A program made the position numbers and the translations under genes. Below the pieces are notes generated by a model that saw only the letters and a program-made list of their open reading frames with translations, had not been told where the DNA came from and ran no database searches. From contig NZ_UXAW01000048.1 of assembly GCF_900609055.1 (NCBI RefSeq), positions 124,001-188,000 on the forward strand: DNA of 64,000 nucleotides, written 5' to 3'. Shown in pieces: positions 2,656 to 33,144 of the stretch. This DNA comes from Pseudogemmobacter humi (lineage in GTDB: Bacteria > Pseudomonadota > Alphaproteobacteria > Rhodobacterales > Rhodobacteraceae). Each line of letters opens with the position of its first letter. Position 1 is the stretch's first letter.

Positions 2656-3721
<1,066 letters not shown>

Positions 3722-3786: not shown

Positions 3787-4905
3787 TCAGGCCGACAGGA
3801 ACTTGTCCTGGTATTCGCCGCGCAGGGCGACATACCAGTTTTCCTGGATCGGCCACCACCACAGCTTTTCAAGCGCATCGCCCGGATAGGCGGCAGCGAA
3901 GAAATTGCGCGAGGCCTCGGGCAGATGCGCCTCGGCGCCCACGGCGGTCGAGTTGATCGAGGTATGGGTGGAATACATCGCGCCCGCCTCGGGCGTCAGC
4001 AGCCAGTTCAGGAAGGCATAGGCCTGGTCGATATTGGCGGCGCCCACCGGGATCGAGATCCCCTCCATCCAGGCCAGCGCGCCCTCTTTCGGGGCGATGA
4101 AGCCGACGGGCAGCCCCTCTTTCTGCAAGCCGGCGGCGCTGCTGTCCCAGGTCTGGCCGATCTTGGCGCCATTGGTGCGGAAGGCGCCCTGGGCCTCGTT
4201 CTCGTTCGACCAGAACTGGATGATGTTGCCCTTGCGCGCGATGGCCTCGGCGGTGATCACGTCGAAATTCGCCCGCATCACCGCTTCGTCCTTGTAGCTG
4301 TCGATGAAGGGATGCGGCAGCTTCCCTTCGCTTTCCAGCCAGAGCGCCAGGCCGACCAGCGAGGAATGGCCGCGCACGGTCGCCTTGCCGGCGGATTCGG
4401 GCTTCCAGATGTCGCCGTAAGAGGCGGTGCCGTATTCCAGCGGCATGTCGTTCTGATCGAAGGCCAGCGCCTCGGTGCCCCAGTCGGTCGGCACCTGGTA
4501 GCGTTTGCCATCCACCACCGCGCCGAGCGTTTCCGAGTTCTTCGCCGCCGAGGGCAGCACGCGGTCCCATTCCACCTTGGAATCGTCGATCGGCTGCAAC
4601 AGGCCGAATTCGACGTAATTCGGCACCCGGTCCACCGAGGGCCAGATGATGTCATAGCCCGAGCCGTTCGAGGCCCGCATCTGGTTCAGCAACTCGTCGT
4701 TGGTGCCGTAGGGCGTGTAGACGGCCTTGATGCCGGTGGCCTTTTCGAAGGCCGCGAGCAGTTCGTCCGAGACGTAACCGGCCCAGGCAAAGATATTGAC
4801 CGAGCCGGACGAGCCCTGCGCCAGCGCCCCGCGCGAGACGAGCGGCGCGGCCAGAGAGGCGACGGCGGCGCCTCTGACGAAAGTGCGGCGGTTGATAAGG
4901 GTCAT
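3787..4905 (-). CDS. Periplasmic substrate-binding protein, PotD/PotF-like
   Basis: A 372-residue solute-binding protein that captures the ligand and delivers it to the PotABC-like importer. The N-terminus carries a Tat-type signal (NRRTFVRGAAVASLAAPLV) followed by an AxA-type cleavage region (GALAQG), so it is probably exported folded. The mature part begins with VNIFAWAGYVSDELL, characteristic of PotD/PotF proteins, and has aromatic and acidic residues typical of amine binding (TDWGTEALAFD, WSNENEAQGAF). It is the first gene of the operon. A GGAG Shine-Dalgarno sequence lies about 10 nt before the ATG. Polyamine is the best guess for the ligand, unproven. Confidence 0.88.
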   Translation of the reverse strand: MTLINRRTFVRGAAVASLAAPLVSRGALAQGSSGSVNIFAWAGYVSDELLAAFEKATGIKAVYTPYGTNDELLNQMRASNGSGYDIIWPSVDRVPNYVEFGLLQPIDDSKVEWDRVLPSAAKNSETLGAVVDGKRYQVPTDWGTEALAFDQNDMPLEYGTASYGDIWKPESAGKATVRGHSSLVGLALWLESEGKLPHPFIDSYKDEAVMRANFDVITAEAIARKGNIIQFWSNENEAQGAFRTNGAKIGQTWDSSAAGLQKEGLPVGFIAPKEGALAWMEGISIPVGAANIDQAYAFLNWLLTPEAGAMYSTHTSINSTAVGAEAHLPEASRNFFAAAYPGDALEKLWWWPIQENWYVALRGEYQDKFLSA

Positions 4906-4999
4906 TTCGAAAGATCTCCGCGTGATCCGGCGGAAAGGCGCCGGAGGTGGATGGGACCTGGCCTGCGTAGTGCGGGTTCATGTCGGCAGGATTGCTGAA

Positions 5000-5017
5000 A
5001 TGTAACAAGCATGTAAC
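5000..5017. repeat. Two direct ATGTAAC heptamers 11 bp apart
   Basis: ATGTAAC occurs at 5000-5006 and again at 5011-5017, separated by AAGC, so the repeats sit one helical turn apart. They lie 95-112 bp upstream of the importer start codon, where a regulator of that operon could bind. No known box is recognised. Confidence 0.35.
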
Positions 5018-5120
5018 GCCCCGGCCCGGCGCAGCTTAGCGTGGCGCGACCGTTCTGCCTAGTCGCCGGACGCGGGATCAGTTTTTCCGACCGAAACACT
5101 TTCCTCCTCACAACCAAGTA

Positions 5121-5136
5121 AAATAGTCAACTATTT
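5121..5136. promoter_or_regulatory. Perfect palindrome upstream of a promoter (possible operator)
   Basis: AAATAGT-CA-ACTATTT is a perfect inverted repeat in an AT-rich island. It ends 18 bp before the -35 hexamer of the plus-strand promoter at 5155, the usual place for an activator site, and also lies in the upstream region of the minus-strand importer operon. I cannot name a regulator. Confidence 0.4.
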
Positions 5137-5154
5137 GATTTTGTTGATTTTTCC

Positions 5155-5183
5155 TTGACCGCGACGCGAATCGTCCCTATGTA
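5155..5183 (+). promoter_or_regulatory. Predicted sigma-70 promoter of the AGCCA-repeat RNA
   Basis: TTGACC (5155-5160), a 17-bp spacer and TATGTA (5178-5183) form a near-consensus housekeeping promoter reading away from the importer operon. Transcription should begin around 5190. No protein-coding gene lies downstream on this strand, so the promoter should drive a non-coding RNA. Confidence 0.6.
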
Positions 5184-5189
5184 GGATCA

Positions 5190-5490
5190 CAGGAAAGCAA
5201 GCCAGCGTCCGCGCAAGCCAGCTCTCGACAGATACAGCCAGCCAGATGATCCGGCCCTCTCAGCCAGGCGCTGCGCGCCCAGCCAGGCCATGCGCCGGAT
5301 CGCTCCAGGTCAGCCATCTCCCCATGCGTCCCGGCCTCTGCGCCAGCCATCTTCCCCGGAAGACCGCCAGCAAGGCAGCCATGCCCCGACAGCCAGCCGC
5401 GCAGCCCAGGTGCCACGCAAGCCAGAGCCATCCAGCCCGACGGGACGGATCGAAAGCAAAAGGGCAGCCCCCGGGCTGCCCTTTGGTGTT
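5190..5490 (+). ncRNA. Candidate small RNA with twelve AGCCA motifs
   Basis: Between the strong promoter at 5155 and the terminator hairpin at 5459-5484 the sequence carries AGCCA at 5200, 5216, 5236, 5240, 5262, 5281, 5312, 5345, 5377, 5391, 5420 and 5426. Eight copies are CAGCCA and three are AAGCCA. Chance would give well under one copy in this length. The spacing is irregular (4-33 nt), which excludes a simple tandem repeat or CRISPR, and no reading frame with a plausible start and protein composition is present. The architecture resembles titrating RNAs such as CsrB, which repeat a short binding motif, but with a different motif. The length of about 300 nt is inferred from promoter and terminator, not observed. 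Confidence 0.5.
5459..5484. terminator. Bidirectional intrinsic terminator
   Basis: A perfect 12-bp stem AAAGGGCAGCCC / GGGCTGCCCTTT with a CC loop. On the minus strand it is followed by a T-rich run and ends the antiporter operon 14 bp after its last stop. On the plus strand it is followed by CTTTGGTGTTT and would end the candidate small RNA. Confidence 0.8.
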
Positions 5491-5497
5491 TCGCGGG

Positions 5498-5911
5498 TCA
5501 GGATTCGCCCGGCGCGTCGGCGGGGTCGGCGAGGGCGTCGCCTGGCGGAGCGGGAATGTCGCTGCGCTCGACCGCGCCGGGGATGCCCGGGGTGCCCTCG
5601 ATCCGGTCGCGGTGCAGCGCGGCGCGGCCCAGAAACATCAGCGTCACCGGCGTGGTGATCATCAGGAAGATGCCAATCACCAGCTCGTGCAGCACCGCGC
5701 GGCCTTCGGTCCAGCTGACCAGCAGCATCGAGGCGAGCAGGATCCCCGCCGCGCCCCAGCTGGTGCCCAAAGTCGGCGCATGCAGCCGGTCGTAGAAGCT
5801 TTTCAGCTGCACCAGCCCCACGGTGCCCAGAAGCGTGAGCGTCGCCCCCAGCATCAGGAACAGCGCCACGGGGATCGCCACCCAGGCGGGGAGTGTTTCC
5901 ATCCAGCTCAT
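5498..5911 (-). CDS. mnhG: Na+/H+ antiporter subunit G (MnhG/PhaG/MrpG)
   Basis: A 137-residue membrane subunit of the multi-subunit Mrp-type cation/proton antiporter. Three transmembrane segments are visible (residues about 9-31, 52-67 and 73-93), with the family motif [19 protein letters not shown] between the first and second. The last 40 residues are an acidic, proline-rich tail ([16 protein letters not shown]) that most MnhG proteins lack. It is the last gene of the operon and its start overlaps the stop of mnhF by 4 bp. It is needed for complex assembly in characterised systems and has no catalytic residue of its own. Confidence 0.9.
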
Positions 5912-32319: not shown

Positions 32320-33144
32320 ATGTTCCGAGCACAGGCGAAACGGCCCTCCGGGCTGAGGACGGGGTTCGAGATCCTTGAGGTCATCTATTACGCCACCGTC
32401 CGTCAGCTGCGCGGCAGCCATTCCAATGCGGTGACCGCGCTGGTGATGAACGTGGTCCAGGCGGCGGTGATGCTGTTCATCTTCGTCATGATGTTCGACA
32501 TTCTGGGGATGCGCCGCTTTGCGATCCGGGGCGATTTCATCCTTTATGTGATGTCCGGGGTCTTCATGTTCATGACGCATGTGAAGACGCTGGGCGCGGT
32601 TTCCGGCGCCGATGCGCCGAACTCCACGATGATGATGCATGCGCCGATGAATCCGGTGATCGCGGTGGTTTCGGCGGCGCTGGCGGCGCTTTATCGTCAG
32701 GCCTTTGCGGCGGGGATGATCCTGTTCGCCTATCACACGCTGTTCCGCCCCATCAGCATATTCGATCCGGTGGGCACGATCGGGATGTTTCTGGTGGCCT
32801 GGGCCTCGGGGGCGGCGATCGGGCTGATCTTCTATGCCGCCAAACCCTGGCACCCGGATTTCGTCGGCATCGCCGCGACCATCTATCAGCGGGCGAACAT
32901 GATCGCTTCGGGCAAGATGTTCGTCGCCAACCAGGCCAGCTCCTGGCTGCGCTCGAAATTCGACTGGAATCCGCTTTATCACACCATCGACCAGGCGCGC
33001 GGGCATATGTTCCTCAACTATCAGCCGCGCTACACCTCGCTGGAATATCCGGTCTATGCGGTGCTGGTCTGCCTGATGATCGGGCTGATGGGGCAGTTCT
33101 TCACCCGCAGATTCGCTTCGGCAAGCTGGGGGAAACGCCGGTGA
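32320..33144 (+). CDS. Capsule-type ABC-2 permease (KpsM/Wzm-like)
   Basis: A 274-residue inner-membrane permease with six helices. The opening GFEILEVIYYATVRQLRGSH, the hydrophobic core AVMLFIFVMMFDILG and the motif NPLYHTIDQARGHMFLNY near the C-terminus match KpsM-like exporters of capsular polysaccharide. No KpsT ATPase lies next to it, so it must use one encoded elsewhere or serve another role. It faces cysQ head-to-head over 157 bp and overlaps the next gene by 4 bp (GTGA). Confidence 0.8.
   Translation: MFRAQAKRPSGLRTGFEILEVIYYATVRQLRGSHSNAVTALVMNVVQAAVMLFIFVMMFDILGMRRFAIRGDFILYVMSGVFMFMTHVKTLGAVSGADAPNSTMMMHAPMNPVIAVVSAALAALYRQAFAAGMILFAYHTLFRPISIFDPVGTIGMFLVAWASGAAIGLIFYAAKPWHPDFVGIAATIYQRANMIASGKMFVANQASSWLRSKFDWNPLYHTIDQARGHMFLNYQPRYTSLEYPVYAVLVCLMIGLMGQFFTRRFASASWGKRR

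Follow-up and report, generated by a model that had tools for sequence, protein, structure and literature searches.

A predicted small-RNA gene family conserved in Rhodobacteraceae, with a GCCAG motif array and a suggested link to iron and heme genes

What is the role of a stretch of about 300 nt that repeats the word AGCCA twelve times, next to mnhG, in Pseudogemmobacter humi? An initial annotation, made from the sequence, proposed a small RNA with its own promoter and terminator that titrates either a protein recognising AGCCA or an RNA with an exposed UGGCU. We addressed this question by analysing the window, a stretch of 64,000 nt (contig NZ_UXAW01000048.1, positions 124,001 to 188,000 of the forward strand), and by comparing the locus (Table 1) with related genomes.

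Table 1. Features at and around the motif array, in window positions.
Feature	Position	Strand	Basis or remark
potD-like extracellular solute-binding protein gene, divergent neighbour	3787..4905	-	PF13416, E 3e-28
Iron-box-like site, 19 bp, ACCAAGTAAAATAGTCAAC	5113..5131		upstream of promoter; matrix from 26 hemP promoter sites
Conserved element AGTCAACTATTTGA	5125..5138	+	inside inverted repeat 5121-5136; compared across relatives
Putative promoter: -35 TTGACC 5155-5160, 17 nt, -10 TATGTA 5178-5183	5155..5183	+	start expected near 5190
Predicted noncoding RNA, ~300 nt	5190..5490	+	conserved promoter, motif array and hairpin end
Array of 12 AGCCA	5199..5430	+	counted in sequence
Palindromic 12-bp hairpin, perfect stem 5459-5470/5473-5484	5459..5484		sequence; similar hairpin there in same-genus relatives
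mnhG, convergent neighbour	5498..5911	-	PF03334, E 4e-21

The array and its surroundings in the window

The letters TTGACC-N17-TATGTA, annotated as a promoter, were confirmed in the sequence, and both hexamers aligned with those of relatives in an alignment of promoter regions. This conservation favours the claim that the RNA has its own promoter, but a generic scan found no sigma-70 promoter above threshold in 4900-5600, and we therefore assigned both the promoter and the plus-strand end of the RNA by comparison with relatives. The perfect stem that had been described as the RNA's terminator is likewise present, but it is palindromic, its better T-run (TTTTGCTTT) lies on the minus strand, behind mnhG, and a terminator scan of 4900-5600 scored a minus-strand terminator only. 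Because of the position of this T-run the hairpin probably serves mnhG too, and it probably terminates transcription in both directions.

All twelve annotated AGCCA were counted (starting at 5200, 5216, 5236, 5240, 5262, 5281, 5312, 5345, 5377, 5391, 5420 and 5426), eight as CAGCCA, three as AAGCCA when base 5199 is included, and one as GAGCCA. The estimate that chance would give fewer than one held for mononucleotide shuffles of the array (mean 0.44, maximum 4 in 5000 shuffles), but the background was higher than this guess in dinucleotide shuffles (mean 2.0, maximum 9 in 5000); as even these did not reach twelve copies, the array is beyond chance. From 5203 to the terminator the locus holds 15 GCCA and zero TGGC, and everywhere in the window the minus strand carries at most two AGCCA per approximately 230 nt. 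Triple AGCCA is not unusual in this genome, since its 28 matches comprised 10 overlapping ones at the locus and 18 scattered elsewhere, and the reversed triple pattern matched 37 times; the run of twelve occurred once, at the locus.

The annotation named no described family with this motif. No Rfam family matched the locus at gathering score, nor did any match at E<=10 come near a cut-off. The only Rfam match at gathering score in the whole window was RF02645 Cis2_sRNA (Ruegeria cis2 sRNA) at 32887-33038 on the minus strand (56.9 bits). No published report of the RNA was found in a literature search that covered mainly open-access papers.

A gene family and its motif

When positions 5080-5500 were used as a blastn query, matches, mostly short, were obtained in 17 of 100 relatives. 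Six loci, from five genomes of the same genus and one of another, matched mainly over the promoter stretch and had 5 to 10 AGCCA in the next 250 nt, on the same strand. The element AGTCAACTATTTGA was found with at most one mismatch in 45 of 295 family genomes and exactly in 7, and dense GCCA followed four of the five exact sites that were read (G249, G345, G245, G014 and G000). Thirteen of its 14 columns showed no variation across the 24 aligned promoters, which for the most part had been collected by means of this element. We then used a sequence-only model of the promoter region, R1, from 24 aligned loci (three of them coding), which includes the first motif copy. At E<=0.01, R1 matched in 40 of 394 family genomes, and at E<=1.6e-6 it gave 29 matches in 27 of 394 Rhodobacteraceae genomes, a lower bound because the search filters were strict. 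Within the genus it matched in 8 of 13 genomes, and beyond the family weak and partial matches were seen in 4 of 240 genomes of the class (L237-L240). Of the strong-match loci returned, 25 of 27 had 6 to 27 GCCA in 400 nt, and by reading we classed 19 of the 27 as noncoding and 8 as coding. Among the matches listed, carriers included Paracoccus haematequi, P. siganidrum, Paracoccus sp. IB05, a Maritimibacter, an Epibacterium and Pseudooceanicola endophyticus, with Celeribacter naphthalenivorans carrying the coding form. A blastn search of plasmids with the RNA as query gave 0 matches.

The initial annotation had placed the RNA in the gap between mnhG and the potD-like gene. It does adjoin mnhG in the window and in relatives, but its confinement to this gap was ruled out by many unrelated loci. 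With neighbours identified by Pfam, the RNA lies between lolA and ftsK at L006, adjoins a gene of sigma-70 type resembling rpoH at L033 and L034, adjoins a VIT gene at L043, and is close to rplN at L037. At L116 it stands between genes for a DUF697 protein and an isoleucyl-type tRNA synthetase, and at L224 it is flanked by the genes of isocitrate lyase and a short-chain acyl-CoA regulator. By these sequence comparisons the stretch belongs to a predicted family of small-RNA genes conserved among Rhodobacteraceae. One Rhodobacteraceae locus, L090, comes from a record that bears the name of an actinobacterium, Enemella evansiae, and is probably a mislabelled assembly.

Word counts over 27 loci identified the shared motif. 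GCCA occurred 318 times against 118 expected and GCCAG 228 times against 48.9; GCAAG was also over-represented (49 against 24), and GGAG was depleted (3 against 25.5). Information was confined to positions -1 to +5, about six positions that read [A/C]GCCAG[C]. The annotated array is real and selected, but AGCCA, which is one flavour of the family-wide motif, was dropped as its core in favour of GCCAG. Two tandem-expanded loci were left out of the word counts and of the information and spacing analysis: in L116 (Maritimibacter, about 2880-3080) GCCAGCTTCC is repeated about 16 times, and in L204 (G267) GCCAGCTCTCT about 11 times. Tested singly, 25 of 29 loci were enriched for GCCA at P<0.05, the other four being L023, L037, L086 and L088; in this test and in the word counts alike, the loci that came from the AGTCAACTATTTGA search and from one further listing had been chosen partly for downstream GCCA, whereas those from the R1 search had not been chosen by GCCA, though R1 includes the first motif copy.

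The motif was invariably on the strand that the conserved promoter would transcribe, and successive copies fell in all three phases (77, 123 and 91 of 291). Apart from overlapping copies the spacing was irregular, with an excess at 4 and 8 nt only. In an alignment of the genus the bodies diverged with many gaps, and GCCA stayed numerous, some copies in place and some shifted. Loss of the copies between preserved flanks had been named beforehand as an observation that would count against the RNA; the opposite was seen, as the flanks diverge and copy number and strand are kept. No conserved reading frame was found in the noncoding bodies, including that of the window, in agreement with the annotated lack of a credible protein frame. 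Sequence comparison thus supports the prediction of a separate RNA gene that has a selected motif array and a promoter of its own, shared with relatives. A structured-RNA account was ruled out, because the RNAs showed no excess stability relative to shuffles (z=0.37 for that of the window; L023, with fewer than three GCCA after trimming, was left out of the fold counts) and the motif was no more open than in shuffles (unpaired 0.51 against 0.50, P 0.39).

A coding counterpart and iron-type boxes

In other lineages the same promoter type drives a gene for a protein of 58-65 aa with four invariant cysteines (CxxC...CRxNPP...DWCG). This four-Cys protein had no relative in Pfam or NCBIfam and 0 matches among PDB sequences, its AlphaFold model had a mean pLDDT of 46.5, and a phage tblastn search gave 0 matches; in PHROGs, 6 of 10 members matched phrog_15838, which has no function assigned (best E 5e-4). 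Members are annotated as hypothetical (L307 2501-2698; alignment A3), PDEN_RS23835 being an example. At E<=1e-4 it was encoded in 13 of 394 family genomes; 33 plasmid records also carried it, of which 17 were from Paracoccus.

The leaders of 11 four-Cys genes contained 37 GCCA in 754 nt, where 11.7 were expected and none of 2000 shuffles exceeded 24; TGGC was absent, and in 7 of the 11 a motif lay at most 22 nt from the start codon. The coding form is present in a laboratory strain, Paracoccus denitrificans PD1222, where the 100 nt ahead of PDEN_RS23835 hold 8 GCCA. The 3' regions of the coding form were not clearly enriched (21 GCCA against 14.8, P 0.06). R1, trained on none of them, matched each of the six plasmid copies from Paracoccus that we examined (E 1.5e-12 to 2.5e-18, 36 kb searched). 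Three Thioclava copies matched at 4e-9 to 0.0015 with most motifs missing: they retain the Cys gene together with the element upstream of it, and GCCA occurs 0, 0 and 2 times near the start. Neither the R1 promoter nor the motifs were found with a Methylobacterium and a Neorhizobium copy, and more distant members (L219, L235, L236) had zero GCCA upstream. Both coding and noncoding forms are present in each of two genomes (G005, G138). On an rpoB tree of 29 of 30 genomes (G130 yielded no rpoB), the reading frame was gained or lost at least 7 times, at least 5 of which are forced by supported branches.

As one Thioclava plasmid has the Cys gene inside a heme-uptake locus, we examined hemP, which was present in 32 of 32 genomes tested; the corresponding count for the RNA is the lower bound of 27 in 394. 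The hemP promoters share a 19-bp palindrome, for which we built a matrix (consensus CCTGATTAAATTAATCAGG) from 26 sites, leaving out L319, L327 and L344, which were below the cut-off, and L332. On two Thioclava plasmids (L310, L312) the gene after the Cys gene is preceded by a similar box, CCGAGTATTTTTGTCAAGTT. In Rhodobacter sphaeroides a 19-bp palindrome termed the Iron-Rhodo-box precedes iron genes that IscR represses, and iscR and hemP promoter fragments of this species bind IscR (PMC4618611). Our matrix, which derives from hemP sites and not from the published letters of that box, matched 33 of 39 RNA or Cys-gene promoters at P<=0.05 against shuffles, with imperfect arms. The box of the window scored 11.6 (P=0.005 against 200 dinucleotide shuffles). 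Relative to the AGTCAAC element, the best boxes lay at -12 (19), -39/-38 (13) and -61 (4).

The motif also appeared behind the hemP box. In the 80 nt just behind it, 27 of 30 hemP leaders (L319, L332 and L344 were left out) contained 41 GCCA against 18.3 expected, with a maximum of 32 in 1000 shuffles, and 1 TGGC; 21 of the 27 had at least one GCCA and 16 at least two. By eye, GCCA often flanks a small hairpin on both sides, and an Rfam family for these leaders was rejected after comparison with Rfam. Several hemP mRNAs among L318-L347 have, also by eye, a short reading frame ahead of hemP, such as ATGACCCGACCTGCAACG... in L320-L322 and L330. All 8 heme-receptor leaders that were read, of 32 records, had GCCAGC within 110 nt upstream of the start, followed by GCAAGC in 5 of the 8. 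Their GCCA count was weakly above that of shuffles (11 against 6.3, P 0.037), the box was weak or absent in 3 of the 8, and 6 of these heme-receptor-type genes stand beside ChuX/HutX or a hemin-degrading factor. A copper-type TonB receptor used as query led nowhere. The distance between the RNA and hemP is about 3 kb in one genome (G280), and in another (G415) about 3.6 kb separate the Cys gene from a second hemP. Together, the promoter boxes and leader motifs suggest that the RNA belongs with iron and heme genes.

A candidate decoy and its alternatives

We see evenly balanced chances that the locus makes an iron-box-controlled noncoding RNA that is a multi-site decoy for a factor that reads GCCAG in heme and iron mRNAs. 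Computation supplied the basis of this proposal, namely the family itself, a motif with a fixed strand, coding and noncoding forms that interchange, boxes common to the promoters, and the presence of the motif in hemP and heme-receptor leaders. Promoters with iron-type boxes would make hemP mRNA, Cys-protein mRNA and the array RNA, with IscR putatively acting at the promoter of the RNA. GCCAG would sit behind the start of all three transcripts, and is found in heme-receptor leaders too; it occurs once or a few times in the hemP, heme-receptor and four-Cys leaders and in many copies in the proposed decoy. The simplest account would be a single reader of GCCAG for which the array RNA is a decoy. 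Since the motif is also present in leaders of iron- and heme-uptake genes, the RNA probably soaks up a regulator that recognises this word; when made, it would sequester the reader, and the translation or stability of the leader-bearing mRNAs would shift.

The four-Cys protein was ruled out as the only reader, as it had no match below E 0.5 in the genome of P. humi. We take the small regulator HemP/HmuP as the first candidate because all genomes tested had it, the motif occurs in its own leader, and rhizobial HmuP reportedly acts through conserved motifs in a heme-receptor leader. More tentatively, we can envisage a Csr-like iron circuit in which a location-hopping gene, interchanging between mRNA and sponge, titrates HemP/HmuP or another reader of single-stranded RNA according to iron. 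If true, Rhodobacteraceae would own a titrating RNA for a heme or iron regulator, of which we know no described example, a natural multi-site ligand would allow the way HemP/HmuP acts to be tested, and one transcript would have switched between mRNA and noncoding RNA several times.

This logic is like that of CsrB/RsmZ, noncoding RNAs that titrate CsrA/RsmA through many copies of a short motif found near mRNA start codons. However, we did not class the RNA with them, because its enriched word is GCCAG and not GGA, with GGAG depleted, and it has no stable fold to display a motif in hairpin loops; it also has iron-type promoter boxes and a coding counterpart. HmuP-responsive elements of rhizobia are similarly short, conserved leader motifs in heme-receptor genes of bacteria that have HemP/HmuP. 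GCCAGC was seen in such leaders here, and hemP co-occurs in the genomes tested, but in our family a distinct noncoding RNA additionally carries the motif in amplified form. RyhB-type iron-responsive small RNAs pair with mRNAs, and RusT of Caulobacter is reportedly an iron-responsive small RNA as well; the likeness lies in iron-linked control, here by promoter-box similarity only, and the array of a short word differs from the pairing of those RNAs. In the same bacterial group, the CcaF1-CcsR transcript of R. sphaeroides joins repeated small RNAs to the message for a small protein: behind an RpoHI/HII promoter it encodes a 71-aa DUF1127 protein and yields four CcsR RNAs by processing (PMC10253847). 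Our family differs in having an unprocessed GCCAG array with a four-Cys protein or none: the protein of the coding form, lacking any Pfam or NCBIfam match, is no DUF1127 protein, and the RNA of the window encodes none.

A different partner, a small RNA or many mRNAs with an exposed CUGGC, would make the array an RNA-RNA sponge or multi-seed antisense RNA. Repeated seeds are known from sponge RNAs, and CTGGC occurred only 4 times over all 29 bodies, so that the RNA avoids pairing with itself; the roughly six informative positions are short for a seed, however, and we consider a sponge unlikely. Somewhat less likely still is that the array is a remnant of the leader and tail of a small-protein mRNA, with GCCAG acting in cis only and little function in trans. 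The shared promoter and leader motif of the two forms and their repeated interchange on the tree agree with such an origin, as does the presence of both upstream of ileS in different genomes (noncoding L116; coding L124, L218 and L230; flanks assigned partly by reading), but noncoding forms keep or gain copies, up to 27 in 400 nt, despite strong divergence. Direct repeats of a short word could also be sites of a DNA-binding protein, which we hold to be very improbable given the constant strand, the irregular spacing, and the occurrence of the motif downstream of hemP and heme-receptor promoters. That there is no gene, only an artefact of composition or slippage beside a hairpin for mnhG, would fit the generic scans and the tandem slippage at two loci, but is scarcely credible when promoter and motif are conserved in many genera and at loci that are unrelated. 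A mere curiosity is the likeness between GCCAGC and a word in the 16S 530 loop.
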